From the IMG/VR virus record IMGVR_UViG_3300044530_000269, positions 1-27,906 of that record: 27,906 bases of DNA; one strand, written 5' to 3'. The notes below the pieces were generated by a model. The model ran no database searches. It saw nothing but the letters and a program-made list of their open reading frames with translations, and was not told where the DNA came from. The DNA comes from a virus. The position numbers were made by a program, and so were the translations under genes. Of this stretch, positions 8,866-27,906 are shown one piece after another. Within the stretch, counting starts at the first letter, position 1, and the number at the start of each line of letters is the position of its first letter.

Positions 8866-8884
8866 TCTAAAAGTTAATTAAGAG

Positions 8885-8920
8885 AAACCTAGCCGCTGGA
8901 ACAGGGCTGGGTTTTTTTTT
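8885..8920 (+). terminator. Rho-independent terminator after the tail tube gene
   Basis: CCTAGCC (8888-8894) pairs with GGCTGGG (8905-8911), seven pairs with one G-U, extended by AAA/TTT, and nine T residues follow. It is the strongest terminator in the window and fits a highly expressed tube gene. Confidence 0.9.
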
Positions 8921-8941
8921 GATTTTATTTTCATATTGCTA

Positions 8942-8970
8942 TTGACATTTATGTCTAAATATGTAACAAT
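8942..8970 (+). promoter_or_regulatory. Sigma70-like promoter for the chaperone / tape measure operon
   Basis: TTGACA at 8942-8947, 17-base spacer, AACAAT at 8965-8970 with an extended TG at 8962-8963. The -35 overlaps a 12-base dyad, GACATTTATGTC (8944-8955), which could be an operator. The promoter follows directly after a terminator and is 55 bases from the next gene. Confidence 0.6.
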
Positions 8971-9024
8971 AATGAGTGCAAACTTGTTTGCTAAAAATAA
9001 ACTAACCAACCAAAGGAAAATATT

Positions 9025-9785: not shown

Positions 9786-12700
9786 TGAGTACTGAAGGTT
9801 CAGTTGGCGTAGCAATTAAAATTACCGATAATTTTGAAACAATTAAAAGTAACATAACAAAATTAAATGAATCTATTGGAACTTTAGATACAAATATAAA
9901 TAAATCTAGAACTATTAATGTAAAGGCATTATTAGTTACAACGGACTTTGATAAAAAAATTGCTGAAGTTGAAGCAAAAGAACATTCAATAAAAATAAAA
10001 GTAAATGCTAATGAAATAGAAGCGATGGTTGCTGGGGCAGTTACTGGTGGCACACCGCATACTATTCGCACAACTGTTGACCTAGCTAATGTAAAAGAAA
10101 TAATCAATACTACATTAAACGCTGAACATCAAATTAATGTGACTGTTAATTCAGCTGGACTTGAAACAAAAGTTGCAGCTGCTATGAAAAACAAATCATA
10201 CCCAGTTCAAATAGACTTCACTCCAGATTCAGCAGTGGGTAATTCATTGTCTGGAATTTCATCAGCTATGAAAGATATAACTAGATTAACAGGTGAAATA
10301 AACAAATTAACAAAAACAGCATTGGGTGATTTAAATGCTCAAATGGCTACTTATTTTAATGACCTTAATCATATTATTGATTTAACAAATAAAGTAGCAG
10401 CTACTGTAGAAACAAATGAAAATAAAAAAGCTGAAGCTGCAGATAAAGCAGCTAAAAGAATGGAAGATGCTGCTCAAAAATTAGCAGACAAAACTGCAGA
10501 ACTCGAAAATAAAAAAGCAACTCAAGCAAAAAAATCTGCAGATGATGCAACTGCTTTAGCTGAAAAAATAAAAACAGATACAATAGCTAAAGCTCAAGAA
10601 TTAGCAGACAAACAAAAAGAAATTTCAGCTAAAGCCGAAGCTGCTATTTTAAAAGATAAACAAGAATCATTTGCCCAATATCTTAAAGGTACTGAAGCAA
10701 TGATTACTCAAAGAATTGGAATTGAAGAAAAACAAGTTCAAGCATTAAAAGACCTTAATCAAAGAGCAGCTAATAATTTTAAATCATCTTTAAATGTTAT
10801 ATTAGACGGTATGAATTTAATTGTTGAAGGTCATAAAAAAGAAGAACAAGCAAAACTTTCTTTAATAGATGCTGAAAATAAATTAGCTGAAGCTAAAAGA
10901 AAAACAGCAATGTCTTCTGCAAATCTAGGTGCAGATACATTCCAAAACAAAGGTCTTACTGGTTCTAAAACACAAGGGATGGATACAGGTTTTCCAATTG
11001 CATTAGGTGGAACAGGTAAACCAAGTAATCAAGTAGAGCAATCGGTTAGTGATGCTGCAAATATGGATAAGCAAATCGCTGCTTTGCGTAAATATAATGC
11101 TGAATATGAACAAGCATATAAAATGCAATATGATATGGAAAAGAAAATCCATAATGATACTGCAGCCGCATATGCTGAAAACACAGCTCGTGATAGAAAA
11201 ATGTTCCTAGACCGTGAAGCTGCGTATAATGAAAACACCTCCCGTGAAAGAAAATATGCTATTGATTTAGAACAAGCATATAAAATGAATTATGAAATAG
11301 AAAAGAAAAGTCACTTGGATATGCAAGCCGCATATGCTGAAAACACAGCTCGTGATAGAAAAATGTTCCTAGACCGTGAAGCTGCATACAAAGAAAATTA
11401 CGAAATGGAAAAACGTAATCACATGATGCTCAAAGAAGCTTATGCTCAAAATGAAAGTTTTGATAAGCAAAAACGCATGGATAGAGGTAAGGCTATTTAT
11501 AGCGGTGATGCTATTATGACATCACGTCAAGATATAGCAAACCTAAGAGAATATGTGGCAGAACATACAAGATTGCATGATACGCTTGGTATGGTACAAA
11601 ATTCAATAGGTATGGTGACTAATGCTCTAATGCAAATGGGTGTGTATCTATCAGTCAAACAGCTTATGGATTATGCTGACCATTGGATGCATTTCACATC
11701 AACTGTGAAGGTAGCAATGCATTCAATGATTGATACAATGCAGCGTTTATCAGGAGAAACTGATATATTGACAAAAGACCAACAAAAATTATTAGTTGAG
11801 TCTAAAATAGACGAAGTGTTTAAAATATCACAAGAAACTAGAACATCTATTGAAGGTACTGCTACGTTATTTGGTCGCATGTCAAGAGCAGCTGAAGCAA
11901 TGGGTATGAGTAATAAAGTTGCCATGACATTGACAAAAGAACTTGGTCAAGCTTTGATGATTTCTGGTTTAAGTACTAATTCAGCTCGTGGTGCATTGTT
12001 GCAGTTAGAACAAGCATTGGGTGGTGTGATTGTTCGTGGTCAAGAATTTAAATCAGTCAATGATGGTTTACCTATTGTAATGCAAACTATTGTGAAACAT
12101 TATAATGAAGCTAAAGTTTCTATTGAAGCATTAAATCTAGGCTATGAAAGAGGAACAGAAGCTTACGAAAAATATATGGCAGCTAATAATAAAGTGCGAG
12201 CATTGACTATGCCAGAAGGTCGTACTTTAATGCTAAAACAAGAAATGATGTCAGCTGTTTCAGCAGAAGCTTTATTGCTTGGTCAAAAAGAATTAGATGA
12301 GTTATCAAAAGATGTTGAAAAAACATTTGAACAAAGTTTCAATTATATTGGAAATGCTTTTTCAAAATATATAGGTACATTGAATGAAGCTTCAGGTGCA
12401 AGCAAATCATTTTCTGAAATTGCAAAAGTTATTGGAGATAATTTTGATGCAATTGGTAATGTTGTTCTAGGAGTAGGAACAGCACTAGGTACTTATATGG
12501 TAGCAATTGGTTTAGCAACGGTTGCTACAAAATTATTTGCTGGTGCATTATCAACAAATATATATGCAACAACGCTTGCAGTGATAGTTGCGCTTGGTGT
12601 GGAAATGTATAGTTTTGCACAAACATCAAAAGATACAACAAGTGAAGCAAATGTGGCTTGGCAAGCATTTTGGAAAACATTTGATGAATCAGATAACCCA

Positions 12701-15700
12701 ATGCTTACAATATTTAAATTAATTGCTGCTGAATTTGAAGGATTAAAAAATACAGTACTTTGGATGGTTGATAAAGTAAATGAATTAAAAGGTAGTGTTG
12801 CTGAGGATAGCATGCTTGGTAAAATTGGCAGCGGTGTGTCAAAAGTATTGCACATAGCATCACCTGTTGCTGGTGCAGCATACGATGCATTATCAGGAGC
12901 TAACTCTGAAAAAGGAAGTTTTGGTGACAGTTATGACAAAAATAAAGAACTAATAAAACAAAATCTTAAAAATGAAGAACTACAAACAAAAGCCAAGCTA
13001 TTAGGTATAGATAAAACTTTAGAAGGTTTAGAAAAAAGAATAGAAGCTGAAGAACAAAGACTTAAAGTAGTTGGTATGAAAGAAAGCACGAGTAGCTTTG
13101 GTTCTATTGCTATGGATAAAGTAGCAAGAGATGCTGCACATGATGCAATGTCAAATAGAGATAAATATATAGACACAGCTATAAATAAATTTCAATCGAG
13201 TTTTATTACAGAATTAGGTAAGTCTGGTACTAATGAAAAAAAGATAACGCTTGATGATTTATTAAAAATGGAACAAAAAAATCTTAGAGCTACTGAACCC
13301 AATACAACACTTTTGGCTATTGTATATGATGAGTGGAAAAAACAAAAAGAAGCTTTAGTTTCTATAGAAGGAAAAGCATACGATTTAAAATTAGAGCAAG
13401 ATAAAATTAATGCTGCACAAAAAGAGCAAGATACTTTTAAATCTAATTTACCAAATATTCAAGAAGGTAATCTTGTTTATATGGAAGGTCAACAATCTAA
13501 AATAGAAGATACTTATAAAAAATTAGGTGTAACTCTTAAGAAAACAATGGTTGAATCCTATGTTGAAAGTGTCAATGATATTAATACAAAATCAGCAGAA
13601 ATTAAACCACGCGTTGCTCCACCATCATCTAAAGAAGTATTAGCTCTTATTGAAAAATACTCAAAAGAATTTAACGTAGATTCAAATCTAGTTAAAGGTG
13701 TGATTCAACAAGAATCCGCTTGGAAACCAAATGCACATAATAAATCTGGTGCAAGTGGTTTAATGCAAGTTATGCCAGCTAATTTTTCTGCTTATGGTAT
13801 TACTGACCCAAGCAACGTAGACCAAAATTTAAAAGCTGGTATTAAAATATTATCTGAAGATATAAAATCTTTTGGTGGTAATGTTAAATTAGCATTAGCT
13901 GCATATAATTATGGTGGTGGTAATGTAAGAAAAGTAGATAAAGACATTTCAAGAATGCCAGCTGAAACTCAAAATTATATTCCAACAGTAATGGGATACG
14001 CTAAAGAATTCGCTGCAGGAAAAACTGGTCGTTTATCAGCAGAAGATAGTGCAGACCTTAAAGAAAAAGCAACTGAAGTTAAAAAAGTAATGACAGAAGC
14101 AATCACACCAGATTTTAGTACTCTATCACAACCATTGAGAAAATTAATGGATGAGGAATTAAAACTAGTAAATGAAATGCAAGCTAAAAAAGATACCATT
14201 AAAACAAAAGAAGAACAGCAAAATTTTGAATTAGATAAAAAACGTTTAACATCGATAGAAGGTGAAATAACTAGACAAGTAGATTTAGAAAAAACTACAG
14301 ATGCTAAATTTGAAAAAGAAATTCGTCAAGAAATGTCAATAGATAAAATTAGAAATAAGTATGGCGATTCGATGAAAAATTTCAAAGAAGAACAACTGCA
14401 ATCAGCAAAGATGGCATCTATGATTTCTGAGAAAGGTGCGTATGCAGTTGACGAATTAAATCAAATGGCTGCTGCTAATTTTGAGAATGCTGATGCAGCA
14501 AAACAACTTGAAGCTAATTTACGTGAAATTCTTGACGCAGAATTAAAACGCTCAGTCTATAATGAAGATGCAAATATTCAAGCACAAAATGAACTTGAAA
14601 AGAAACAAAAAATATTAGGCATAGTAGAACAAATCAACGATGCATCTGCTGCTGCAAAGCAAAGTGAAAAATTAGGTAAAGATGCTGAGTCGTCTGTTAA
14701 GAATGTGACCGCTAATGCCTATAAACAAGTTGATAAATTAAAAGCTGAAAACCAATCTATCTTTGCTGCTACTGGAACAGGTAAGGCATTTGCTGTTGCA
14801 GATAAACGCATGGAACTTGATAAAGCTGTAGGTAATATTTTAGACCCAGAAGCTAAAAAGAAATTCCAAGCAGAAGCAGATGCCTTGTTAAAATCAATGC
14901 AATTAAAACTAGATGTGGAATTGCGTGTGGCTAACATTGAAGAATTTAAAACAGGTTTATCTACGTTAACACAATCATTAGGTGAAGACCTTGGTAAAGT
15001 TGGTGAAGCTCTTACAGGTATCGCTAGTCATTTTGCTGACATTGCTTTAAGCAATGAAAAGCTTGCTGGACAAGCGGAGATGGAGAAAAATGCGTATGAA
15101 GAAAAACTTAAAACAATTACAGGTACAGATGAAAAAGCTAACAAACAAAAATTAGAACTTACAGAAGCTTACAATAAAGAAAAAGAAAAAATTGAACGTA
15201 AAGGAACTAAAGCACAAATAGATGGATTTGCAAATATTGCTGGCGCAGCTAGTACAATGTTTGGTGAACAAACTCGTGGTCGCAAAGCATTGCATGCTTT
15301 AGAAATCACATTACACGCTACAAGCATGGCAATGACATTAGTTGAAACAGCGGCTAACGTGGCTTCTGGTGCGGCTAAATTCTTTGCACAATCTGGTTGG
15401 GCTGGTTTTGCTGGTGTGGCTGCTATGTTAGCACTTATGGGTACATTGGGTTATGCGATAGGTGGTGGAGGTGGTAGTAGTAAACCACAAGATACTTCTG
15501 CACCAGAAACAAAATCAACAGGTTCAGTATTTGGTGATAAAGAAAGTAGTTCTAAATCAGTAGAAAACATTGTGACTACTTTAAATGATATTCACTATAG
15601 AGAATATGATGCATTACTTTCTATTGGTGATAGTTTTAAAATGCTAAGTAAAGATGTGAATGGTGCAGTTATTCTTGCAGTTAATCAACAAGGTGGTTTT

Positions 15701-18700
15701 GCTGGTTCAACTAAACAAGCAAGCGCATCTGCATTAAACCCTGCTGGTTCAACTGCAATGATTGGTGCTGGTTTAGCTGGCTCTGTGGCTTTAGGTGCTA
15801 CAGGTGCATTATCACAGGTAGGTTTGCTTGTTGGTGCGCAACTTGTGAATGCTGGGGCAACAAGCTTAGGCATAGGTATGTCAACTGCTGCAGCATCTTC
15901 TGCTGCAATGTCAACAACGGTAGGCACAGCATTGGGAGCAGGTAGTGGTGCTATGGCTTCTGCATTAGGTGGAGCTGTATTAGGCTTAGCTGGTGGTTTA
16001 GTATTTGCAGCATTACAATATGGTCTTGGTAAATTATTAGGTATTGGTAAAACTAAATTCGAAGTAATTGGTGCTGGTATTATGACAAAAGCAACTGATG
16101 TTATTATTGACGGTGCTGCAAAATCATTGATGGTTTATGATTATTCAAAAATCAAACAAACTACAAAAGGTTGGTTTAGTGATACAGTGAAAATTTATGA
16201 TATAGTTAATGGCATAAATTCAAATATGACAAGTACGTTCACATCTATATTTGTAAATTTCAAAAATATAATTGGTGGAATGGCTAAAGAATTAAACATA
16301 TCTGAATTTTTTGATAAAGCATTCACAATACCTAAAATGAAAATATCATTAAAAGGTTTAAAATCTGAAGAAATAAATAAAAAAATAACAGACACTCTTA
16401 ACACGGTGATGGATGATATAGTAACCAGTGTACAAAATGGTTTCTTAACTCAATTCCAACGTATGGGCGAAGGGATGCTTGAAACATTCAATCGTGTTGC
16501 AACAGATGCACTTGTAGTAAAAGCTACATTTAAAAACATGGGAATGGACATATCAACAACTGGCTTTGGGTTAATTACTTTCTCAGAAGCATTAGTTGAC
16601 GTATTTGAATCTTCAGCATCAGCGAAAGATGGTTTGAAAAACTTTGTAAAAACTATGAATGACCTTTATAAAGTTGCTACAACAGGTGGTCAAAAAACAG
16701 CTGATACTGCTGGACAACTTGCTGCTAAAATAACAGCTTTAAATACACAATCTACAACAATAACTACAAAATCAACAGGTATTGCTTTAACCTCTAATTT
16801 CGCTAATGATGTTGCAGATTTAAAAGCAAGCACTACTGCGGTTGTTGCTGATGTAGCCAAAGCAGCAAAAGCATTGCCAGCAGCAAATTTGAAAACACTT
16901 GCAGCTGATGTAAATAAAGATATAAGAGGAAAAGATTTCTCCAACGATGTGTTACTAAAAAGAATTGGCATGGCATTTGGTACAGATAGTGATAGATATA
17001 AAACAGCGGAAAAAAATCCAAATGCTTTAAAACTTACCACAGCTGATATTTTAAAAGTAACAAAATCAGATATTTTTGACAATACTCAAGCATCTGTATC
17101 TCTAAGTGCTTATAGAAACTCATCAAGCGGTGAATCACAAAAAATAGCAGATAAAACATTAGCTTATGCCAAAGCATTAGACGCATCTACATTAGTTTTA
17201 ACAAAACGAGAAACAGCTTATACTAATTTAACAAAAGCAACAGATATAAATGCTCCTGCAGGTATGGATAGATATGCAACAGGTATGTCAACAAATACAG
17301 TTGCTAATCAAACAATTGTTTCTAGTTTAATTACTAAAGCAATAGCAGATAAAACATTACCAAATACATCAGCACTTATGTCAAAAACAATAAGTGTCAC
17401 TTTACCAACATTGCCAACAGACCCAACTCAATTGACACAAGCAGTTGTATTAGCCGCACAAAAAGAACTTACACCTGTAATAAATACAATGGGTAATATA
17501 ACAAAAGGGTTAACATCATTACAAAATCTAACAACTCCAACTACTGTATTAGCTGATTTATCAAAATTAGATAAAAAAGGTAGTATTGATTGGTTGCTGA
17601 AAGGGGCAAATTCTCAAGCTGACAAAATGAATATAACAAAAGAGCAATTAATGCATCTTACCTCTAGTCAATTGAATGCAGATGTAGCTCAAAGAGTCAT
17701 GGGTGAAATTAGAGATAAGAAAACTGGTGCAGTTACTGGATATGACCAAACAAAAGCTACATTAACACAAGATAAAACATCAGGACTTTTCTATACAGAA
17801 CTTGCTAAAATTATTAAGCATAATGATGAAGCTGATGCACAATTAAAAGCTATAAAAAAATCACCAACTGGTGCTGCTGATTTTGTTACACAAACTTTTG
17901 GTACTGCAGAAACATTAGGTGGAAAACTTAATTTTGATAAACTTGTTGAACAGGTTAGTAAAATTGTAAATATGTCAGATGCTGTAGCAAGAGATGATGC
18001 ATTTGCTTCGCTAAACGGTTCATATATTGACTTAAACAAAACTGTTGCAACCTATCAATCAGATTTTGCATCAATAGCACAAAATTTTGGCGATACATTA
18101 GCGTTTACAAAATCAATAGCTGATATTCAAGAATCTTATTTATCAAAAGTAACAACTGAGCTTGAAACAAAAAATCGTGCTTATGCTGAATCATTAAAAG
18201 ACCTTAATAGTGAAACAGATATTTCTAGTTTGTTAACAAAACAAACTACAACAGCTGTGACAACATGGATAGGAACATTAAATGAAGAAAGAAAAGCGTA
18301 CTTAGGTATAAAAGAAGTTACTAGTGATGTTGTTGATGAGCAAGGAAATCAAATTAAAAGTCTTGCTATTACAGAAATGGCATTAAAAGCATTTGACAAT
18401 ACTGTGACTTCTTTATCAGGAAGTTTACAAGCAGCGTTGACAGCATTAAAGAATTTCCAATCAAGTATATCTGATTGGGTAAGAAATCAAAAAACTACTA
18501 ATGTTGGAAATACTAAATCACAAATGGATGAAGCAAGTAGACAGTTTGATTCATTAATGTTAAAAATTAAAAACCCAGCTGTATCTGCTGAAGATAAAAA
18601 TTTAGCCATGACAAAAATCACAGGTTCAGCTGATTCATTATTAAATGCGGTTAGAAACTATTACGGTACATCTAAAGCTGGTGCAGATATTACTTCTGAA

Positions 18701-21700
18701 ATAATAAAACAAATGGACACATTACCTGATTCATTAACTACACAAGAATTGATGTTAGGTGAGTTACAAAAAATTAAAGATAACACAGCAGTGTTACCTA
18801 CATTCGTAGGTATGACACAAGGTAGCACTGATACCATTGATACATTATCAAAAGCAATTGCAGCTGCAATGGCATTAGACAAGTCTAATCCATCATTAGC
18901 TAATACCGCTATATTAGATGCTAAAGCAAATATACAATTAGTTTTACAAAAAGCTGTTGTAGGTGCTACAGGTGCTGACGCTGTATTCTTAAATAATCTA
19001 GTTTCAGCTATCGGTGGCGATAAAGGTTTATCTGCTACTATTGATGCAGTAGTGAATGCTAAGCTTGGAACAACAACAACAGAAGATGTGCTTAATGCTT
19101 TGAAAACATCTTTTGCTGGATTAGAAGTTGAAATTGAAAAAGTTAAATTGAATCCAACTGAAGCTAATATCAAACAGATGCAAGCTGATATTGATAACTT
19201 CAAAGTTTTAACTATGAAAATAAATGGTAATGTGGAATCATTAAAACTCAATCCAGATGACCCTATATTGAGAAGACAGTTGCAGGATTCATTAGATGAG
19301 ATGAATGATTTTACAGCTAAAGTAACTGGTATAGATATTACAAGTACAGCTAAACGTTTAGCCATTGGTGATTTAAAATCAACATTTGCTGATAGCACTT
19401 TCAAAGTTAATCCTACTGTTAGCAATGCAAGCATGTATGAAATGATGTCTACATTACGTGAAAAATTTGCAGCCCTTATTGCTAAAGTAAATGTAACTGA
19501 TAATCCTGTGGCAACTGCTACTTTAAAAGAAAGCTTTAGAAAATCATTCGGTACTATTGATTCAAAAGTATTTGCTTCTCTTAATCAAGATAGCAAACTA
19601 GCAGTATTAAGTGCAATGGATGCTGCATTTGACCATATCGAAGCTACTGTAGACAGTACATTAAATGAGTCTAAAAAAGCAACTGTATTAACATCACTCA
19701 ATCGTGCATTTGGTATTATACCTTCATTAGTTACTACAGGTATAAATGAATCTGCTAGAATCGCAGCAGTTGAAGCTTTAAAAGTATCGTTTAAAACAAT
19801 TACCACTGGTATTGCTCCAATGGTTAATGAAGATTTAAAACTCAAAGCACAAGGGATATTAGATAAGGCTTTTGATACTGTAGAAGCTACTATTAATAGC
19901 ACTGTTGGTGAAGCTACTAAGAAAACTACATTCAATGCATTAAAAAATGCATTTTCTACAATAACAGCTTCTATTAGTTCAGATGTTAATGAAACGTCAC
20001 AGGGGCTTGCTTTAACTGCATTAGAAAAAGGATTTAAAGCAGTTAATGCTAATATAGTGAGTGATTTAGATGATGGTGCTAAATATTCTGTAGCCAATGA
20101 ATTAAAAGCAGCATTTGGTAAAATGACTGATATTATTTCAGTAGAACTAGACCCAAAAACTATGGACAAAGCATTGACTGCTATAGATAGAGCTTTTGGT
20201 AGTATCGATGTATTAATTTCATCTAATGTTGAGCCAAAAACAAAACAAGCTGCCATAAAAGAAATAACAGCTGCATTTGGTACTATCAAAACATTGGTTG
20301 AAAGCGATGTTGATGAGGAATCAAAATACAATGCTATTGCTGCATTAGAACGTGGATTTGCTACAGTTGAAGCTGTTGCCTATGCTAGTATCTCACCTGC
20401 ATCTAAAACAGCAGCAGTTAATAGTTTGAAAAATGCTTTATCTGGAATTCAAGCCTTAATTAATGATGTAGCATTGAATCCAACTGATACTAATATCAGA
20501 CAGCTTAATGATAAGATTAAAAAGTTTGGTAATCTAACTGCACAAGTTGAAACCACTATCAGTGGAATAGCGATATCAACTAGTACTGAAGCTCAATTAG
20601 GTCGTGATATTTCTGCAATAGATGATTTAACAGCTGATGTTGGTTTAGGTGTTAAGAGTGGTGCAGCAACTGATTTGAATTCTCAAATAGCTGCTCTAAC
20701 TAGTGCTATAAAAAATATTAAAGTTACTTTAAAAATTGATTTTGATGCTGTATCTGATGAAGCTGTTTCAAGAGTTGAGGGTATTCAAGATATATCACAA
20801 GACCCAATGGTATTTAAAATTCAAGTTCCACAAATAAGTACAGCTACTGTTGATAATTTAACAAATGCTCTTAAAGAATCAACAGCTGAAGCTGCTAAAA
20901 TGATTACAACTTTTGATTCTATGTTATCCAATGCCCAACAAGTTCAATCAGCTATTGATATATTTGCCAATGGTAATACAATGATTGCTGCTTATATACC
21001 TCTTGCTGGTGAAGTTAGAGGTAGAGAAGGTTATCAAAAATTAGCAGACCTTACTGAAATCGAAGCTCAAATGCAGTTGACTACTACAGAGAAACAAAGA
21101 CAAACTTATACTGATTTTGGACAAGATAAAATAAAAACAGAAAAGGATGCGTTGAAACTTGGTTCACAACTTTATTATGATTTACAAACAGGAAGTAGTA
21201 AATATAATATTGCATTGAGTTATGTTGAAGGTTACAACTCAACACATACACCGGATATTCCACAAAAGGTTCATGTATTAGATGGTGCAAAGAATGAAGA
21301 ATCGTATGCTGCTGGTGCAGTGTTAGGTAAAAATCCAAAAACAGATGCGAATAATGCATTAGCTGCTTATAACAGAGCATTGGCTATTATAAAATCTAGT
21401 TCTGATGAATACTATAAATTAATTGGCTATAATCAAGGTGGACAAAGCCCTTCATTCTTCGCAATGGGTGGTGCATTTACAAATGGCATAGTTAACACAC
21501 CTACTGCATTTAACATGGGTGTTATGGGTGAAGCTGGTCCAGAAGCTATTATGCCATTAGTGCAAACAAGTGGTGGTCTTGGTGTTCGTGCAATGACACC
21601 AGCATCTAATGACAATAACAATAATTCTGAAGAAGAATTACGTGAAGTTAAAAAACAAAACCAAATCTTAATGGCACAAAATGCAATATTGCAAGAAGGG

Positions 21701-21784
21701 TTCAAACAACTAATTAGTGTTAATACTAAACAAGCTGATAGCCTAGATAATATTGAAACAACAAATCGGAGAGCTGCTGCATGA
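9785..21784 (+). CDS. Giant tape measure protein with SLT transglycosylase domain
   Basis: 3,999 residues, with AAGGAAG seven bases before the ATG. Parts seen in order: Lys/Ala-rich coiled coil (~209-299); seven 18-residue repeats (443-568); a tape-measure N-terminal domain (~590-776) with ARGALLQLEQALGG and RGQEFKSVNDGLP; a hydrophobic stretch (~886-945); and a lysozyme-like SLT domain (~1285-1408) with catalytic Glu1310 in QQESAW, GASGLMQVMP (1322-1331) and AYNYGGG (1373-1379). After these come hydrophobic segments (~1819-1898 and ~1979-2085), long helical regions, fourteen 27-residue repeats (3188-3565) and the usual C-terminal block GVMGEAGPEAIMPL. It sets tail length and should open the cell wall and help DNA cross the membrane. 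The length suggests an exceptionally long tail. Confidence 0.95.
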   Translation: MSTEGSVGVAIKITDNFETIKSNITKLNESIGTLDTNINKSRTINVKALLVTTDFDKKIAEVEAKEHSIKIKVNANEIEAMVAGAVTGGTPHTIRTTVDLANVKEIINTTLNAEHQINVTVNSAGLETKVAAAMKNKSYPVQIDFTPDSAVGNSLSGISSAMKDITRLTGEINKLTKTALGDLNAQMATYFNDLNHIIDLTNKVAATVETNENKKAEAADKAAKRMEDAAQKLADKTAELENKKATQAKKSADDATALAEKIKTDTIAKAQELADKQKEISAKAEAAILKDKQESFAQYLKGTEAMITQRIGIEEKQVQALKDLNQRAANNFKSSLNVILDGMNLIVEGHKKEEQAKLSLIDAENKLAEAKRKTAMSSANLGADTFQNKGLTGSKTQGMDTGFPIALGGTGKPSNQVEQSVSDAANMDKQIAALRKYNAEYEQAYKMQYDMEKKIHNDTAAAYAENTARDRKMFLDREAAYNENTSRERKYAIDLEQAYKMNYEIEKKSHLDMQAAYAENTARDRKMFLDREAAYKENYEMEKRNHMMLKEAYAQNESFDKQKRMDRGKAIYSGDAIMTSRQDIANLREYVAEHTRLHDTLGMVQNSIGMVTNALMQMGVYLSVKQLMDYADHWMHFTSTVKVAMHSMIDTMQRLSGETDILTKDQQKLLVESKIDEVFKISQETRTSIEGTATLFGRMSRAAEAMGMSNKVAMTLTKELGQALMISGLSTNSARGALLQLEQALGGVIVRGQEFKSVNDGLPIVMQTIVKHYNEAKVSIEALNLGYERGTEAYEKYMAANNKVRALTMPEGRTLMLKQEMMSAVSAEALLLGQKELDELSKDVEKTFEQSFNYIGNAFSKYIGTLNEASGASKSFSEIAKVIGDNFDAIGNVVLGVGTALGTYMVAIGLATVATKLFAGALSTNIYATTLAVIVALGVEMYSFAQTSKDTTSEANVAWQAFWKTFDESDNPMLTIFKLIAAEFEGLKNTVLWMVDKVNELKGSVAEDSMLGKIGSGVSKVLHIASPVAGAAYDALSGANSEKGSFGDSYDKNKELIKQNLKNEELQTKAKLLGIDKTLEGLEKRIEAEEQRLKVVGMKESTSSFGSIAMDKVARDAAHDAMSNRDKYIDTAINKFQSSFITELGKSGTNEKKITLDDLLKMEQKNLRATEPNTTLLAIVYDEWKKQKEALVSIEGKAYDLKLEQDKINAAQKEQDTFKSNLPNIQEGNLVYMEGQQSKIEDTYKKLGVTLKKTMVESYVESVNDINTKSAEIKPRVAPPSSKEVLALIEKYSKEFNVDSNLVKGVIQQESAWKPNAHNKSGASGLMQVMPANFSAYGITDPSNVDQNLKAGIKILSEDIKSFGGNVKLALAAYNYGGGNVRKVDKDISRMPAETQNYIPTVMGYAKEFAAGKTGRLSAEDSADLKEKATEVKKVMTEAITPDFSTLSQPLRKLMDEELKLVNEMQAKKDTIKTKEEQQNFELDKKRLTSIEGEITRQVDLEKTTDAKFEKEIRQEMSIDKIRNKYGDSMKNFKEEQLQSAKMASMISEKGAYAVDELNQMAAANFENADAAKQLEANLREILDAELKRSVYNEDANIQAQNELEKKQKILGIVEQINDASAAAKQSEKLGKDAESSVKNVTANAYKQVDKLKAENQSIFAATGTGKAFAVADKRMELDKAVGNILDPEAKKKFQAEADALLKSMQLKLDVELRVANIEEFKTGLSTLTQSLGEDLGKVGEALTGIASHFADIALSNEKLAGQAEMEKNAYEEKLKTITGTDEKANKQKLELTEAYNKEKEKIERKGTKAQIDGFANIAGAASTMFGEQTRGRKALHALEITLHATSMAMTLVETAANVASGAAKFFAQSGWAGFAGVAAMLALMGTLGYAIGGGGGSSKPQDTSAPETKSTGSVFGDKESSSKSVENIVTTLNDIHYREYDALLSIGDSFKMLSKDVNGAVILAVNQQGGFAGSTKQASASALNPAGSTAMIGAGLAGSVALGATGALSQVGLLVGAQLVNAGATSLGIGMSTAAASSAAMSTTVGTALGAGSGAMASALGGAVLGLAGGLVFAALQYGLGKLLGIGKTKFEVIGAGIMTKATDVIIDGAAKSLMVYDYSKIKQTTKGWFSDTVKIYDIVNGINSNMTSTFTSIFVNFKNIIGGMAKELNISEFFDKAFTIPKMKISLKGLKSEEINKKITDTLNTVMDDIVTSVQNGFLTQFQRMGEGMLETFNRVATDALVVKATFKNMGMDISTTGFGLITFSEALVDVFESSASAKDGLKNFVKTMNDLYKVATTGGQKTADTAGQLAAKITALNTQSTTITTKSTGIALTSNFANDVADLKASTTAVVADVAKAAKALPAANLKTLAADVNKDIRGKDFSNDVLLKRIGMAFGTDSDRYKTAEKNPNALKLTTADILKVTKSDIFDNTQASVSLSAYRNSSSGESQKIADKTLAYAKALDASTLVLTKRETAYTNLTKATDINAPAGMDRYATGMSTNTVANQTIVSSLITKAIADKTLPNTSALMSKTISVTLPTLPTDPTQLTQAVVLAAQKELTPVINTMGNITKGLTSLQNLTTPTTVLADLSKLDKKGSIDWLLKGANSQADKMNITKEQLMHLTSSQLNADVAQRVMGEIRDKKTGAVTGYDQTKATLTQDKTSGLFYTELAKIIKHNDEADAQLKAIKKSPTGAADFVTQTFGTAETLGGKLNFDKLVEQVSKIVNMSDAVARDDAFASLNGSYIDLNKTVATYQSDFASIAQNFGDTLAFTKSIADIQESYLSKVTTELETKNRAYAESLKDLNSETDISSLLTKQTTTAVTTWIGTLNEERKAYLGIKEVTSDVVDEQGNQIKSLAITEMALKAFDNTVTSLSGSLQAALTALKNFQSSISDWVRNQKTTNVGNTKSQMDEASRQFDSLMLKIKNPAVSAEDKNLAMTKITGSADSLLNAVRNYYGTSKAGADITSEIIKQMDTLPDSLTTQELMLGELQKIKDNTAVLPTFVGMTQGSTDTIDTLSKAIAAAMALDKSNPSLANTAILDAKANIQLVLQKAVVGATGADAVFLNNLVSAIGGDKGLSATIDAVVNAKLGTTTTEDVLNALKTSFAGLEVEIEKVKLNPTEANIKQMQADIDNFKVLTMKINGNVESLKLNPDDPILRRQLQDSLDEMNDFTAKVTGIDITSTAKRLAIGDLKSTFADSTFKVNPTVSNASMYEMMSTLREKFAALIAKVNVTDNPVATATLKESFRKSFGTIDSKVFASLNQDSKLAVLSAMDAAFDHIEATVDSTLNESKKATVLTSLNRAFGIIPSLVTTGINESARIAAVEALKVSFKTITTGIAPMVNEDLKLKAQGILDKAFDTVEATINSTVGEATKKTTFNALKNAFSTITASISSDVNETSQGLALTALEKGFKAVNANIVSDLDDGAKYSVANELKAAFGKMTDIISVELDPKTMDKALTAIDRAFGSIDVLISSNVEPKTKQAAIKEITAAFGTIKTLVESDVDEESKYNAIAALERGFATVEAVAYASISPASKTAAVNSLKNALSGIQALINDVALNPTDTNIRQLNDKIKKFGNLTAQVETTISGIAISTSTEAQLGRDISAIDDLTADVGLGVKSGAATDLNSQIAALTSAIKNIKVTLKIDFDAVSDEAVSRVEGIQDISQDPMVFKIQVPQISTATVDNLTNALKESTAEAAKMITTFDSMLSNAQQVQSAIDIFANGNTMIAAYIPLAGEVRGREGYQKLADLTEIEAQMQLTTTEKQRQTYTDFGQDKIKTEKDALKLGSQLYYDLQTGSSKYNIALSYVEGYNSTHTPDIPQKVHVLDGAKNEESYAAGAVLGKNPKTDANNALAAYNRALAIIKSSSDEYYKLIGYNQGGQSPSFFAMGGAFTNGIVNTPTAFNMGVMGEAGPEAIMPLVQTSGGLGVRAMTPASNDNNNNSEEELREVKKQNQILMAQNAILQEGFKQLISVNTKQADSLDNIETTNRRAAA
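11111..11488 (+). repeat. Seven tandem 18-residue (54-nt) repeats in the tape measure gene
   Basis: Residues 443-568 fall into seven units of exactly 18 residues. Each starts with AY after one residue (QAYKM, AAYAEN, AAYNEN, QAYKM, AAYAEN, AAYKEN, EAYAQN) and is rich in Arg/Lys and Glu/Asp. Units 2 and 5 are identical. At DNA level 60 bases are identical between 11164-11223 and 11326-11385, a distance of three units (162 bases), pointing to a recent block duplication. Confidence 0.85.
19346..20479 (+). repeat. Fourteen tandem 27-residue (81-nt) repeats in the tape measure gene
   Basis: Residues 3188-3565 divide without gaps into 14 units of exactly 27 residues. Positions 7, 10, 14, 17 and 21 are hydrophobic in nearly all units; position 14 is Phe in thirteen of the fourteen (AF, GF, SF, KF, TF). 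Most units end in a short acidic or Asn/Pro turn such as VNE, LNE, VDE or VEP. The DNA is strongly diverged, so the constraint is on protein. Weaker related units flank the array on both sides (LNPTEANI near residue 3122 and LNPTDTNI near 3564). Confidence 0.85.
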
Positions 21785-23670
21785 GTAGTTGGATAGCGAC
21801 AATACAGGTACTGGATACAAATTCAGTACCCAAAACACTTTACTTTTCAGATGATGGATATACAACAGCAGATGGTATTTATTATGAAGCCCGTATGCGT
21901 CAACCCGCTATTATAAACATAACTGGTAATGATGGTGGATTATTAAATGTGATGGCTAGTAATTCTGTTGGTGAAATTGAATTAGATAATACAGATGGTT
22001 ATTTAGATTTCATGGCAGATTATTACATAGATGGTCGAGATTGTATATTGCAACTTGTAGACGACAATAATATATTTACCACATGGTTTAGAGGTATTGT
22101 GACAAGACAATATCAAAAAGGCAATAATGTCTATCTAACTGTGAAATCTTTATCTGAAGCATTAGATACACCTTTTTCACTTAACCGTTATGATGGTTCA
22201 GGTGGTACACATGGCGTAGAAGGTTTGGCTACTGACATACGTGGTAATGTGAAACCCCGTATATATGGACGTGTAATAAATGCTACGCCTATATTGTGCA
22301 ATGCTGCATTAGGTATATATCAAGTATCTGACTTAAGTACTTGTACTATCACAGCTGTGTATGATAAAGGTGCATTGTTAACACCAGAAGCATCACCTAG
22401 AGCTTCATTAGATGCTTTAGCTGGTTACACTTCTGGTGGTACTGATTATGATACTCCACCAGCAGATGGATATTATGCATATTATCAAGGTTACTTTAGA
22501 ATAGGCTCAATGCAAACTCAACAAGTCACTTGCTCAGCAGAGGATACTGTGATAAATGCAGGTGATGTATTTTTAAAAGTATGTCAAAGTATTTTATTCT
22601 CTAGTGGGGCTAGAACGATAGGAGAAGTTCCAGTAACGCTAAGTGATGTGCTTTATAAATACCAAGCGTCAGCATCAACTACAATCAAAATAAACAATGT
22701 GTTTAATGATGGCGCACCATTAGATTATGCAGGAACACCTTATGCGAGTTTATCTGAATTTAATAGTACAGCTCCTCCTGTTGGAACATGGCGTGACTTT
22801 CAAGGTTATTTTAGATTAACACCTCCTATTGATGACCAATCTTACGATAGCATTAATGACCGTTGGAATTCAATAATAATTAACAATGTGACATATAATT
22901 CAACTGACACAGCGATTACTTATGCGACTACACAAACTGTAGCTGTAAACACAGATTCAACTTATGGCATCGCTGCTGTATTAAATCCACTTGGACCGAT
23001 TGGAATATATATAACAGCTGATACTACAATTAGACAGTTACTTGATAGTATTGTTTTATCTGGTGGAGCTTATTGGTGGTTTGGTGATGCTGTTAGTACT
23101 ACTAACTATGCATCAAATAAAATTAACGTAGCCCTATATCAAGAACCTAGTTCTACTGCTGATATAACTATTGAAAATTGGCAAATTATTTCTGTTGAGA
23201 GAACATCAACAGGTGTTGGTCAAAACGGCTTACCTATATATTCTGCTATGGCAAAATATGATAAAATAGAAACTATACAAACTGATGTATATGGTGTAGT
23301 TAGTGATAACTTTAGAAGTTGGCAAGCGCGATTATTAATAGGTTCGCTTATAAATGAATCTGCTGATTTAACTGTTAAAGCCAAACACCCACAAAGTACT
23401 CGTTTAGAGTTTAATAGTTTATGTCGTAACCAAACAGCAGTCAATACACGGACAACTGCTCTGCTATCTTACTTTAAGAAAAGATGTGACATAGTTGATG
23501 CGGTAGCTTACTTCGATGAGCTTCCAAGAATAACATTAAATATGACAGTTAGACTTTACTATGACAGATTAGGTTATACCAATGGAGTTAACTTTAGATT
23601 AGTTGGTTATGAGATTGACATTAAACGTAAGCGTGTGACTATGCGACTAATGGGGTATAAACTAATATGA
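21781..23670 (+). CDS. Tail hub-like structural protein
   Basis: 629 residues, starting in an ATGA overlap with the tape measure gene, with GGAGAG (21768-21773) upstream. The N-terminus (~1-130) is a beta-rich virion domain (MSSWIATIQVLD, GEIELDNTDGYLDFMADYY, WFRGIVTRQY). The middle contains KPRIYGRVINATPILCN followed by LGIYQVSD, the signature of hub proteins that I know from many siphophages. The strand set appears twice: IYQVSD...AVYDKGALL near 180 and YKYQASAS...NVFNDGAPL near 300, each ending YQGYFRI or FQGYFRL. The C-terminus (~540-629: RITLNMTVRLYYDRLGY, LVGYEIDIKRKRVTMRLMG) looks like a hub barrel. It probably closes the distal end of the tail around the tape measure tip. Confidence 0.65.
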   Translation: MSSWIATIQVLDTNSVPKTLYFSDDGYTTADGIYYEARMRQPAIINITGNDGGLLNVMASNSVGEIELDNTDGYLDFMADYYIDGRDCILQLVDDNNIFTTWFRGIVTRQYQKGNNVYLTVKSLSEALDTPFSLNRYDGSGGTHGVEGLATDIRGNVKPRIYGRVINATPILCNAALGIYQVSDLSTCTITAVYDKGALLTPEASPRASLDALAGYTSGGTDYDTPPADGYYAYYQGYFRIGSMQTQQVTCSAEDTVINAGDVFLKVCQSILFSSGARTIGEVPVTLSDVLYKYQASASTTIKINNVFNDGAPLDYAGTPYASLSEFNSTAPPVGTWRDFQGYFRLTPPIDDQSYDSINDRWNSIIINNVTYNSTDTAITYATTQTVAVNTDSTYGIAAVLNPLGPIGIYITADTTIRQLLDSIVLSGGAYWWFGDAVSTTNYASNKINVALYQEPSSTADITIENWQIISVERTSTGVGQNGLPIYSAMAKYDKIETIQTDVYGVVSDNFRSWQARLLIGSLINESADLTVKAKHPQSTRLEFNSLCRNQTAVNTRTTALLSYFKKRCDIVDAVAYFDELPRITLNMTVRLYYDRLGYTNGVNFRLVGYEIDIKRKRVTMRLMGYKLI

Positions 23671-23676
23671 TAGACA

Positions 23677-23705
23677 TTGACTATTTTATAATATTGTGCT
23701 ATAGT
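23677..23705 (+). promoter_or_regulatory. Sigma70-like promoter for the distal tail / tip genes
   Basis: TTGACT (23677-23682), a 17-base spacer and TATAGT (23700-23705) with an extended TG at 23697-23698. It starts seven bases after the previous stop. An imperfect 18-base dyad (ATTG..CTATAG..CAAT, 23693-23710) covers the -10 box and could be an operator. Confidence 0.75.
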
Positions 23706-23737
23706 GCAATGTGTTCTTATGATGAAGGGAAGTATTA

Positions 23738-24922
23738 ATGAGTAATATAATGTTGTGTCATCCAAATAGATTATTGGAAAATACTGCTTTGTTATCTGTG
23801 TCAGCTGATTGGTCTACAACATTACCATTAGTAAATATATTATCACCGATATTACAAAAAAAAGCAAGAACAAAAACTTTTGCAGCTAATGTTCCAGCAA
23901 CAGCTTGGTTTGCTGTGAATCTAAATAAAGTACCAGATAGATACATGGGTGCAGCTGCTATTATAAATCATAATATGTCAACTGAAGGATTGATTAAATT
24001 TACTGTATATAAATCCAATCCGTATTTTTATAGCAATACTACTGCTACCATTAGTTCGTCAATGACATTCACTGTTCCAGCTGGAACTATTATACCTTCA
24101 GGAACTACCGTAACAATTTATCCACATAGCTCTGACCCAAATACAAATACTAATTATAAATTAGTAGGTACAGTAAACGGTGGATTAGCTATTGGTGGAA
24201 CATCATTGACTGTTAATATAACATCAATGCCAACAGGTGCTTCTGGAAAAATATTTAGTAAATGGTACATTGGTGATGTGAAAACTTCTCAAATCAATAC
24301 ACCCGCTTGGGTGAGAGTTTGGACTAGAGTTTTTAGTACATCTGGTACACAGGCTATTTGGAATAGTACTAATTTTTGGAATGGTTTAGTTGAAGAAGAA
24401 CAACGCACTAGTTTTACTGGAATTCACATATCACAATTATATACATCTGGTGGTACAGGTTCAGTAAAAGAACAAGCTTACGGTACACACATGAGTGTTG
24501 AGATGTATGACCCCAGTCAACCAGCTGGATATAATTTTATTGATTTTGGTAGATTATTTATAGGTCAATTTACAGCTCCAGTTGTAAACCCAGAATATGG
24601 TTCTGTTGAATTTGGTTATGTTGATAATTCAGAAATGCAACAAGCTAATAATGGAACAAAGTATTTTTATGAAAAAAGAAAAACAAGAACTGTGTCAATG
24701 AGTTGGAATCACCTAGATGTTGATGAAGCATTGGGTGGCATCTATGATGCCTATCGTGCGCAAGGCATATCTCGTGAAATATTATATGTGTATAGCTTAG
24801 CACCATTTGAACCGTACATTTATGCAAAATCATTCTTAGGTCGATTCACATCCCTAAATGCAATAAACCAACCTAACCCTGGATTATATTCAGCTTCAGT
24901 AAATATAGAGGAAATTTTATAA
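23738..24922 (+). CDS. Distal-tail-like structural protein with inserted beta domain
   Basis: 394 residues, with AAGGGAAG upstream of the ATG. The N-terminus (MLCHPNRLLENTALLSVSAD, then WSTTLPLVNILSP, then WFAVNLNK) and the end pattern TVSMSWNHLDVDEALGGIYD and ILYVYSLAP belong to a phage tail protein family placed at the distal end of siphovirus tails. Residues ~95-165 (ISSSMTFTVPAG, TTVTIYPHS, LTVNITSMPTGASGK) form an extra beta domain of the type found in fibres, splitting the structural core. It likely links the tail tip to adhesins. The stop overlaps the next ATG (TAATG). The exact ring position is inferred from gene order. Confidence 0.6.
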   Translation: MSNIMLCHPNRLLENTALLSVSADWSTTLPLVNILSPILQKKARTKTFAANVPATAWFAVNLNKVPDRYMGAAAIINHNMSTEGLIKFTVYKSNPYFYSNTTATISSSMTFTVPAGTIIPSGTTVTIYPHSSDPNTNTNYKLVGTVNGGLAIGGTSLTVNITSMPTGASGKIFSKWYIGDVKTSQINTPAWVRVWTRVFSTSGTQAIWNSTNFWNGLVEEEQRTSFTGIHISQLYTSGGTGSVKEQAYGTHMSVEMYDPSQPAGYNFIDFGRLFIGQFTAPVVNPEYGSVEFGYVDNSEMQQANNGTKYFYEKRKTRTVSMSWNHLDVDEALGGIYDAYRAQGISREILYVYSLAPFEPYIYAKSFLGRFTSLNAINQPNPGLYSASVNIEEIL

Positions 24923-25755
24923 TGGCAAACTCAGTAACCTTCCCAATAACAGGACACACATATACTGACGACTCTGACCCTAATACTGGATTAGATGGTG
25001 GTGGTCACGTACTTAGATTTGTGCCAGCATTATCTGATGTAGTAACTGCAGCAGCAGGTGTTGTGAATACTATTAATCAAGGTATTTCACAAATTAATTC
25101 AATTGCAGCTACTGTGACACAATCAGCTAGTACAGCTGGAACATTTGTTTCTACATTGACTTTAGCTAAAGGTTCTTTATCTTTTACATTAGGTCAAACA
25201 TACAAAGCATTTTCAATTGGTCAAACAGTCAATATAGCTGATGAAACTGGTCTACATGTTATGTCTGGAACAATAACAACATTTGTTTCATCAACTGGTG
25301 CTATGTCTGTAAATGTGACTACATTACTTGGTTCTGGTACTTATACAAGTACATGGACTGTATCTGTTGGTGCAGCAATGCCTGGTACAATGACATTCCC
25401 ACCAGACATTGACCAAGTTGGTTATATGAATATGCCACAGAATATTCAATCAGCTAATTATACTTTAGCCTATAGTGACCAAGGTAAACATATTTATCAT
25501 CCAATGGCTGATACTACACCTAGAACATTTACGATACCCACACATGCTTCAATGGCTACCAAATATCCAAACGGAACTGTAATAACAATCATCAATGACA
25601 CCAATGCAGGTGTGATTACAGTAACAACAGCCGATTCATTGGTTTTGGCAGGAACTGGTACTGTAGGCGATAGAACCATCTCAGCTAATGGTATCGCCAC
25701 TATAACCAAGATGACGGACACTCGTTGGATTATTGCTGGTTCTGGTGTTCTATAA
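24922..25755 (+). CDS. Tail fibre / appendage protein
   Basis: 277 residues, with GAGGAA (24908-24913) before the ATG. After a virion-anchoring N-terminus (FPITGHTYTDDSDPNTG, HVLRFVPALSDVV) comes a beta module of ~70 residues (FSIGQTVNIADETG, SSTGAMSVNVTTLLGSGTYT) that recurs in phage fibres. The C-terminal part (DIDQVGYMNMPQN, YTLAYSDQGKHIYH, NGTVITIINDTNAGVITV, TKMTDTRWIIAGSGVL) is a widespread fibre domain. It is likely part of the tip or a short side fibre. It shares a promoter with the distal-tail-like gene and overlaps the tip gene by one base. Confidence 0.7.
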   Translation: MANSVTFPITGHTYTDDSDPNTGLDGGGHVLRFVPALSDVVTAAAGVVNTINQGISQINSIAATVTQSASTAGTFVSTLTLAKGSLSFTLGQTYKAFSIGQTVNIADETGLHVMSGTITTFVSSTGAMSVNVTTLLGSGTYTSTWTVSVGAAMPGTMTFPPDIDQVGYMNMPQNIQSANYTLAYSDQGKHIYHPMADTTPRTFTIPTHASMATKYPNGTVITIINDTNAGVITVTTADSLVLAGTGTVGDRTISANGIATITKMTDTRWIIAGSGVL

Positions 25756-27620
25756 TGACTGGTATATTATTAACCTTGGTATCTCGTGGTAGTACTACTT
25801 TGTCTTATACAGCAGTTCCTGTTATTAGCGGAACAGTTACTGAACGTTCTGTATTAACCACAACAAATGGTATATGGCTTGGTGCTGTACCTATTACATT
25901 TAGTTATCAATGGTTCGCAAATGCTGTACCAGTATCAAGTGGTTCAAATTCATATACAGTGCAAACTTCAGATATAGGAAAATCATTTACATGTAAGGTT
26001 GCAGCTACTAATTTTTATGGAACTATTGTAGCCGAATCATTGCAGACGACTGTTGTTACACAAGGAGTTCCAACTAAACCAGTTGTTACTTATAATGGAT
26101 TATCAACAACAGGGGTTACTCTAAATTGGTCAGCTAGTGAAAGCGGCATAACAGGTTATGATGTTTATAACAATACTACAAAATTAACACCATCTCCTAT
26201 AACAGCATTGACATATGCTGTAACAGGGTTAACGGCACAATCAAGTTATCCATTTTATGTGAAAGCTATTAATGCAATAGGTACTACATCATCAGATGTT
26301 TTGAATGTGATAACCGATGCCAACGCACCTACTGGTTTAACACAATCGTCTATTACAAGTACTGGGTTTACATTATCTTGGACTGTGACAAGTGGTGTGT
26401 CATACACTATTTTTAATGGTAGCACACAATTTGGTAGCGCACAAACAACTGGTAACGTAGCTATAACGGGTTTATCACCACAAACAGCATATACGTTCTA
26501 TGTTAAAGCTACAGCAACTGGAAGCACTAATGCTATATCATCATCTGCATATAATATAACAACAGCTCCAGCAGTACCAACTGGAGTAAGTGCAACATCA
26601 ATTACCACAACAACATTTACTTTAAATTGGACTGGTGTTTCTGGTGTAACGTATGAAATCATAAAAGGTTCAACTTCAATAGCAAGTAGTATAGCTGGAA
26701 CTAACGGCAACATGACATACAATGTTACTGGATTAACAGCTCAAACATCATATAATTTTTATGTGAAAGCTACTACAACAAGTAATTCAGTAGTATCGTC
26801 AGCAACATCACAACCATTATCCATGCAAACATTGAAAAACACATTAATCTTAACATTGTCGGGTGGTTCAACACCAAATAATGATACTTGGTCAACATCA
26901 ACTCTGTTTGTTCCAAATGGTGCATCAACAACACAAGCTACTGATATTACTTTGAATGTAACAGGTAGTTATTCTGCAACTGGAAATAATGCAAACGGAA
27001 GTGGTACATTTTTATTAACTGTTGATACAGCTGGTATGGTTGCAGGTTCAACATTAACACTTATTATTGCAAGTGGTGTCACTATTAGTGGTAGACCGGG
27101 AGCTGGTAAGAATGCATCTGGAACAACAAATAATAATGCTTCTGGTGCTTTAAGGTTGCTTGGTTCTTCAGCCTGTCCAATAACTTTAAAAAATTATGGA
27201 ACGATTCAAGGTGGTAGTGGTGGCGGTGGTTCTGGTGGTTCTGGTATGGGAAGTAGTTACGGTGGAGATGGTAAACCTGGTGGTAGTGGTGGCACTGGTT
27301 TACTGAGAAATTCGTATGTAACTATAAATACACAAGGTTCAATTTATGGCGGTGGCGGTGGCGGTGGCGGTGCTGGTACTGGTACAGCAACAACAGGTAG
27401 TCAAACAGGTAGCGGTTCATCTGGAGCAGAAGCTTCTAATGGTTCTGGTGTAGGTGGTAATGGAGGTGATGGCTATTTACCATCTGGTACAGTTAGTACG
27501 CCAAGAGGGTCACCTGGAGCTGGAGGTAGTAGGGTTAATGGTAATAGTGGAACTGGTAATTATCCGTATAGTGGTGGAGCAGGTGGCGCGGGTGGAATAG
27601 CTATTGACTCATCAGGTTAA
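25755..27620 (+). CDS. Receptor-binding tip protein with Ig-like, FN3 and glycine-rich domains
   Basis: I choose the ATG at 25755, which overlaps the previous TAA (621 residues); an ATG ten codons earlier lies inside the upstream gene. Domains: an Ig-like domain (~20-110; SYQWFANAVPVSSGSNSY, FTCKVAATNFYG); three fibronectin type III domains (~110-365) marked by LNWSAS, LSWTVT and LNWTGV and by TGLTAQSSYPFYVKA-type loops; and a beta region with NTLILTLSGGS. The last ~130 residues are extremely Gly/Ser-rich, with GTIQGGSGGGGSGG and GSIYGGGGGGGGAG. Such Gly-rich ends form stacked polyglycine II helices in known phage adhesins (for example phage S16 gp38) and bind the receptor. The protein is probably the primary host-range determinant. 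Confidence 0.75.
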   Translation: MTGILLTLVSRGSTTLSYTAVPVISGTVTERSVLTTTNGIWLGAVPITFSYQWFANAVPVSSGSNSYTVQTSDIGKSFTCKVAATNFYGTIVAESLQTTVVTQGVPTKPVVTYNGLSTTGVTLNWSASESGITGYDVYNNTTKLTPSPITALTYAVTGLTAQSSYPFYVKAINAIGTTSSDVLNVITDANAPTGLTQSSITSTGFTLSWTVTSGVSYTIFNGSTQFGSAQTTGNVAITGLSPQTAYTFYVKATATGSTNAISSSAYNITTAPAVPTGVSATSITTTTFTLNWTGVSGVTYEIIKGSTSIASSIAGTNGNMTYNVTGLTAQTSYNFYVKATTTSNSVVSSATSQPLSMQTLKNTLILTLSGGSTPNNDTWSTSTLFVPNGASTTQATDITLNVTGSYSATGNNANGSGTFLLTVDTAGMVAGSTLTLIIASGVTISGRPGAGKNASGTTNNNASGALRLLGSSACPITLKNYGTIQGGSGGGGSGGSGMGSSYGGDGKPGGSGGTGLLRNSYVTINTQGSIYGGGGGGGGAGTGTATTGSQTGSGSSGAEASNGSGVGGNGGDGYLPSGTVSTPRGSPGAGGSRVNGNSGTGNYPYSGGAGGAGGIAIDSSG

Positions 27621-27660: not shown

Positions 27661-27840
27661 ATGCCATCAAAATCAGCAGCACAACATAAAACAATGCTCG
27701 CAGCAGCACACAACAAAGCCTTTGCTAAAAAAGTTGGCATACCAATGTCAGTAGCAATTGACTTTATGAATGCTGATAAAAAAGCTGGCAAATTTAAATC
27801 CAAAGCCAAACCAAAGGCTAAGTCGAAGTCTAAGGGCTAA
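27661..27840 (+). CDS. Small basic phage protein, PSKS motif
   Basis: 59 residues, with GGAG (27650-27653) seven bases before the ATG. The N-terminus PSKSAAQHKTMLAAAHNKAF followed by AKKVGIPMSVAIDFMNADK is a pattern I have seen in many small phage proteins (PSKS, spaced Gln and Met, AAAH). Its function is not known to me. The C-terminus is a Lys/Ser/Ala tail (KSKAKPKAKSKSKG), strongly basic, suggesting nucleic-acid binding. It lies between the tip gene and a likely membrane protein. Its stop lies in the first copy of a 17-bp tandem repeat. Confidence 0.8.
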   Translation: MPSKSAAQHKTMLAAAHNKAFAKKVGIPMSVAIDFMNADKKAGKFKSKAKPKAKSKSKG

Positions 27841-27866
27841 TGGACATTTAGGGCTAATGGACATTT
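27833..27866 (+). repeat. 17-bp perfect tandem duplication at a gene junction
   Basis: The unit AGGGCTAATGGACATTT occurs at 27833-27849 and again at 27850-27866 without interruption. Each copy holds a stop TAA overlapping an ATG (TAATG). Because 17 is not a multiple of three, only the second copy opens into a long frame. Confidence 0.95.
27840..27851 (+). other. Three-codon mini-ORF (ATG GAC ATT TAG) made by the duplication
   Basis: The ATG at 27840 overlaps the TAA of the small basic gene. After Met-Asp-Ile the frame stops at TAG (27849-27851), five bases before the ATG of the next real gene. It begins with the same three codons as that gene. It could be a relay for translation reinitiation, or a passive by-product. 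Confidence 0.6.
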
Positions 27867-27906
27867 TGACATTTGCTGGTGAGGTTGGTTTTCCAATAGC
27901 AATAGC
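27857..27906 (+). CDS. Start of a small membrane-type protein, 3' partial
   Basis: Only 16 codons are visible: MDILTFAGEVGFPIAI and on. A short acidic start followed by a turning hydrophobic stretch (GFPIAIA) is typical of small single-pass phage proteins with an N-terminal membrane helix that often lie just after tail genes, next to lysis genes. A holin or holin-like role is possible but cannot be shown from this fragment. The ribosome site is poor (AGGG only three bases before the ATG), so expression probably depends on coupling to the upstream small gene through the duplicated junction. Confidence 0.55.
   Translation, partial: MDILTFAGEVGFPIAI

Follow-up and report, generated by a model that had tools for sequence, protein, structure and literature searches.

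A duplicated TAATG gene junction in a phage genome: a decoy three-codon ORF with a likely damping effect on reinitiation

Among the closest described systems is the coat/lysis junction of the RNA phage GA together with its variants that carry short upstream ORFs (PMC9955659). The locus reported here resembles this junction in the UAAUG/TAATG overlap of stop and start, and it resembles the variants in a three-codon ORF with a Shine-Dalgarno (SD) sequence ahead of the next ORF. In addition, the downstream gene in GA is a lysis gene, and a possible lysis gene lies downstream here. In the E. coli experiments that the source describes, UAAUG-joined upstream ORFs that carry an SD sequence abolish expression of the next ORF when they are three to five codons long, whereas those of at least six codons allow it. 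The authors propose that the SD sequence pulls released ribosomes back (PMC9955659). GA differs in being an RNA phage whose native junction is described without a minigene, and the blocking short ORFs were built on plasmids. In the phage studied here, the decoy ORF stems from a duplication, and the real start, which is equipped with its own SD-like site, is located 5 nt past the end of the decoy. Distance has a strong influence on such couplings: For three gene pairs of E. coli, reinitiation is reported to drop by 5, 20 and 70% at +2 nt, and drops of 40-80% are given for +14 nt (PMC10666635).

A second group of related systems comprises the minigenes axe-txe mg2, LEE1, baxL and argL, very short cis-acting ORFs located just before a gene (PMC8708949). 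The decoy shares the position just before a gene and may likewise act in cis. Of these minigenes, mg2 has two codons, is located 15 nt before txe and is described as raising txe expression, with distance setting the size of the effect (PMC8708949). By contrast, the decoy begins within the stop codon of the gene before it and is itself a copy of the start of the gene that follows.

A natural duplicated TAATG junction was not noticed in the literature, as far as titles and the beginnings of abstracts reveal. The bar minigenes of phage lambda have reportedly been studied for their toxicity via peptidyl-tRNA and not within a coupled junction. As few-codon ORFs of a phage they are comparable to the decoy (PMC9955659). 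If the decoy works as proposed below, it would be a natural counterpart of the plasmid-built short upstream ORFs tested in E. coli.

Layout of the duplicated junction

The window, i.e. the whole stretch of DNA that was analysed, is an entire virus record of 27906 bases, and the repeat stands in its last 250 bases. The 17-bp unit AGGGCTAATGGACATTT is present in two exact copies that adjoin without a gap (27833-27849 and 27850-27866; these and all other features of the junction are on the + strand). The first copy holds the stop codon of a small basic protein gene (27661-27840; 59 aa, MPSKSAAQ...SKSKG) and the decoy start, and the second copy holds the start of the real gene. This stop codon, TAA at 27838-27840, shares one base with the decoy ATG (27840-27842). 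This TeRe layout, the TAATG at 27838-27842, is also found in the related contigs L002, L005 and L006. The decoy itself, ATG GAC ATT TAG, occupies 27840-27851 and encodes MDI. The original prediction had described a 17-bp duplication, a coupled TAATG junction and a Met-Asp-Ile-stop decoy, and all three can be read directly at these positions. Between the decoy stop and the real ATG (27857-27859) lie 5 nt (27852-27856). From this ATG, the frame is open for 16 residues (27857-27906) up to the record end, which cuts the gene, a 91-aa phrog_18771 protein gene. Readthrough of the decoy's TAG would lead to the TAA at 27855-27857 as the next in-frame stop, which again overlaps the real ATG.

Both starts are preceded by SD-like sites, TAAGGG at 27831-27836 for the decoy and the weaker TTAGGG at 27848-27853 for the real start, the latter overlapping the decoy stop codon. 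Their duplex energies are -4.8 and -3.4 kcal/mol, respectively, calculated with a generic anti-SD sequence, from which that of the host may differ. The site with -4.8 kcal/mol is the one that serves the single real start in L002, and the junction of the more distant L005 has hardly any SD sequence (-0.9). Since the spacing from AGGG to ATG is short in both copies (3 nt), neither SD may matter much.

With one copy, the junction reads TAAGGGCTAATGG. Here, the small basic gene and the 91-residue gene are coupled through a stop/start overlap of one base, which is a common coupling layout. The 17-bp unit contains an SD-like site, a stop and a start, and its length is not a multiple of three. Whenever a copy is added, a three-codon ORF with its own stop results, and the coding frame of the real gene is unharmed. 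With two copies (window and L004), the small gene's +1 frame continues without a stop into the real gene; in L002, with its one copy, it does not. A fusion of both proteins by frameshifting was rejected and is regarded as no more than a curiosity.

Chance does not explain the 17-bp duplication. In a total of 40 sequences simulated with the length and the dinucleotide transitions of the window, perfect tandem duplications with a period of 10-60 arose 2 times, and never with a period of at least 17. In the window alone there are 2 with periods of 10-60, the 17-base one and one with a 12-base period at 27347, which sits in Gly-rich coding repeats.

Copy number in sister phages

Among the relatives of the small basic protein in viral_contigs, five contigs also bear the second gene, and these belong to three lineages. 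A comparison with relatives, proposed along with the original prediction, revealed both forms. Two copies with the same boundaries as in the window are present in L003 (dataset 3300046011) and L004 (3300046028). Here, two of the 17 bases in the first copy are changed, which now reads ATG AGC ATT TAG (Met-Ser-Ile-stop), and the changes add a second stop to the small gene (TAA TGA). One copy is found in L002 (3300044655), where both the small gene and the 91-residue gene are present. One copy is likewise found in L005 and L006, which are identical to each other over 4394 bases and, with their more distant sequence, form the outgroup. The layout of a regulatory minigene directly before a gene, with MDI-stop in the window and MSI-stop in L003/L004, is therefore not conserved among the relatives, as it is absent from L002, L005 and L006. 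The retention of start and stop of the decoy in L003/L004 despite two changed bases is compatible with a retained function, and it would also be expected by chance often enough. An exact-pattern scan of viral_contigs for the two-copy form, which may leave out records very near the window, yielded 2 contigs, those of L003 and L004. The start sequence of the real gene was found in 3 contigs by the same kind of scan, and the one-copy junction had 0 matches in genome_contigs.

Judged by their DNA similarity, the phages represented by the window, L002 and L003/L004 are sisters. The window matches the record of L004 (G003) at 94.4% over 7899-25316 and that of L002 (G001) at 95.4% over 18440-26865. 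G001 and G003 agree at 97.1% over a stretch of 3300 bases that begins at the small gene, and at 88.8% farther upstream. In the alignment of the junction, L002 and the window share 15 variant sites (columns 6-152), L002 and L003 share 8 sites (columns 5, 8 and 131-197) as well as a 12-base stretch that is missing from the window, and 4 sites join the window and L003. Because its variant sites are shared partly with the window and partly with L003, L002 is seen from this alignment to be a mosaic with a single copy on an L003-like backbone. This means, one-copy and two-copy forms stand on nearly one backbone beside the repeat.

Since the third sister and the outgroup have one copy, copy number varies in this lineage. 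The identical boundaries in the window and in L003/L004 favour one old duplication, which would have been followed in L002 by loss or by replacement through recombination. Alternatively, the unit may have been gained twice independently at identical boundaries. Both histories require at least two changes in copy number, or one change in combination with one recombination event.

Proposed reinitiation at the junction and competing explanations

The best explanation, with a probability of roughly 0.6, is damped termination-reinitiation at a short tandem duplication of a phage-operon junction that arose by replication slippage and was tolerated, not selected. Ribosomes that end the small gene would restart first at the decoy ATG, synthesize MDI and stop at the TAG. 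Afterwards, the stronger TAAGGG would draw them to the decoy once more, or they would leave the mRNA, or they would advance by 5 nt to the real ATG with its weaker TTAGGG. Less of the 91-residue protein would then be made, perhaps severalfold less, and the same would hold for the TAATG-coupled 82-residue protein encoded next. Fewer ribosomes are expected on both genes because short coupled upstream ORFs block the next ORF (PMC9955659) and reinitiation depends steeply on distance in E. coli (PMC10666635). The block may be weaker than in the constructs described in PMC9955659, as the real start keeps its own SD-like site, unlike in these constructs, and lies 5 nt past the decoy stop instead of overlapping it. 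By analogy, damping of the 91-residue gene by the decoy is likely. The decoy may even have the opposite effect, since the minigene described for axe-txe raises expression (PMC8708949). If damping occurs, the one-copy and two-copy sisters would provide a natural comparison of the extent to which a duplicated start site lowers expression of a coupled gene.

Three other explanations were weighed. An assembly or sequencing artefact would mean that the true sequence has one copy and that the repeat was made near the contig end. This would agree with the record stopping 40 bases past the repeat, with the identity of the two copies in the window and with the single copy in the sister L002. It is nevertheless improbable because the duplication occurs with the same boundaries in contigs from two other datasets, away from contig ends and with a first copy that can be told apart (15 of 17 bases the same), although L003 and L004 are identical over the 6230 bases compared and hence represent one virus, a single sequence witness assembled in two datasets. 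The original prediction had considered both an artefact and a recent slip. The former has become unlikely by virtue of the same duplication, with a diverged first copy, in contigs from two other datasets. The latter fits the identical copies of the window and fits less well the diverged ones of L003/L004. Somewhat less remote than an artefact, but still doubtful, is a neutral change: The post-termination ribosome would find the real ATG equally well from 16 nt, or initiation would occur afresh at TTAGGG, and the locus would be an ordinary small duplication. The SD-like site of the real start is in line with this. So is the observation that outside the lineage most family members start the gene after an intergenic stretch and not at an overlap (among the best 80 of 580 relatives, with the upstream gene assigned by a rough rule), which indicates that the gene can start without coupling. 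The weaker SD-like site of the real start, the strong distance dependence of reinitiation reported for E. coli (PMC10666635) and the block of the next ORF by the short coupled ORFs described in PMC9955659 argue against neutrality.

It is quite unlikely, too, that the self-closing unit acts as a translational rheostat. Here, slippage would tune a lysis-related membrane protein and the coupled next gene stepwise and reversibly without ever destroying either of them. Frequent gain and loss of the unit would yield a population with differing levels of the membrane protein and possibly differing lysis times. Such a role would fit the different copy numbers on almost one backbone, the fact that the unit closes its own frame, and the position of the gene in a lysis cassette of one relative (L183, see below). 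If it were true, a coupled junction could change gene dose by slippage without harm to a protein. However, only one and two copies were found in three sister lineages and one outgroup, and the diverged copies of L003/L004 point to a repeat that is more stable, not less. Furthermore, among the best 80 of 354 relatives of the small protein (L002-L081), all of which were inspected at the stop of the small gene, 0 of 80 show perfect tandem repetition there with a period of 8-60. Damped reinitiation at a tolerated duplication is thus preferred, and the repeat is most likely an unstable, tolerated slippage product. Its presumed origin by slippage is weakened by the lack of microhomology at the repeat ends beyond the unit itself, as slippage usually leaves such microhomology. 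The original prediction had suggested a crude timing control. This suggestion finds no backing, as the sister L002 possesses both genes with one copy, and there is no support for the repeat as a deliberate control.

The wider family was surveyed for start codons ahead of the gene in an alignment of the best 80 of 580 relatives of the 91-aa protein. The 45 nt before the gene contain fewer ATGs than dinucleotide shuffles do (25 in 65 distinct upstream stretches versus 36.4, sd 3.0), and 0 of 300 shuffles had a count as low as observed. Here, two duplicated loci were dropped and related sequences are unweighted. Complete short ORFs are also scarcer, with 13 in the 65 distinct stretches versus 19.5 (sd 3.2; 6 of 300 shuffles as low) and 16 in all 80 loci, the best of 580, versus 27.4 (sd 4.1). 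Recurrent leader ORFs in the family were therefore rejected. The counts suggest that stray starts before the gene are usually avoided. As the survey covers this one gene, the scarcity of ATGs may be a general trait. A hairpin that hides the start was rejected as a special feature as well: The predicted stem pairs GTC(A/G)AAGTC with GGACATTTTGAC in the window, L002 and L004 and was not found in L005, and the folds are no better than those of shuffles (z -0.60, -0.34 and -0.37 for the window, L002 and L004).

The genes on both sides of the junction

The downstream frame had been predicted to be a real gene, and it is complete with 91 aa in L002, L003 and L004. From 27850 to the record end, the DNA of the window is identical to these three contigs in the alignment. 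The 91-aa protein of L002 matches phrog_18771 (function unknown; E 5.5e-22) as its sole phrog family, and it has, by eye, one long hydrophobic stretch near the N-terminus. Its match to Pfam YvrJ (E 0.11) is below the cut-off. The next gene, with 82 residues in L002, is joined by a further TAATG. Its product belongs to the same family (phrog_18771, E 3.5e-23) with 20% identity to the 91-aa protein, and both genes (L002:4192-4715) are, from this similarity, an old tandem pair of related genes. Searches with the 91-aa and the 82-aa protein yielded 5 and 6 loci, respectively.

A lysis role of the 91-aa protein is plausible from gene neighbourhoods. The distant relative L183 contains a compact cassette (L183:2520-3626) with overlapping stops and starts, in which two phrog_18771 homologs are located between an XhlA-like protein and a phage lysozyme (E 1.6e-27). 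The 70-residue XhlA-like protein is a holin candidate (Pfam E 3e-6, below the cut-off; phrog_689 holin, E 2.5e-5). The 91-residue homolog of L183 matches phrog_4898 holin (E 7.4e-4) in addition to phrog_18771; the L002 protein has no phrog_4898 match. This cassette suggests that the phrog_18771 family belongs to lysis. Furthermore, in Methylophilales phage Melnitz-3 and Pelagibacter phage HTVC008M a homolog is located shortly before csgF and csgG, pore genes for which a part in lysis timing is proposed (PMC9004378). In the ORF lists of L002, L004 and L005, there is no lysozyme-sized frame on the + strand directly after the gene pair. Of the predicted membrane protein near a lysis region, the link to lysis is thus backed by the gene order of one relative, L183, and the ORF lists of these three contigs show no lysozyme beside the pair on the + strand.

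The small basic protein upstream (59 aa) matches phrog_16759 (unknown function; E 1.6e-17), and its N-terminal 49 residues match phrog_22033 (virion structural protein; E 1.3e-10). In Pfam, no family is above the cut-off. Its N-terminus, MPSKS.AQH...AHNKAFAKKVGIP, is common to at least 354 viral loci and also occurs in jumbo phages such as PhiPA3. The C-terminus of the relatives is often long, quite different, and rich in Lys/Gly or in His (22 loci inspected by eye).

Elsewhere in the record, the neighbouring genes at 932-2005 and 2002-2880 each show similarity to phrog_19943 (virion structural protein) in its C-terminal part and constitute another tandem pair of related genes. The gene at 25725-27620 encodes a protein of 631 aa that contains fibronectin type III domains (Pfam E 8.7e-21) and whose Gly-rich end shows a weak resemblance, below the cut-off, to the tail fibre adhesin Gp38 (E 0.0022). 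Between 25316 and 27653, the window and G003 do not match at the DNA level. One reading frame (9785-21784; 3999 aa) accounts for 43% of the record.
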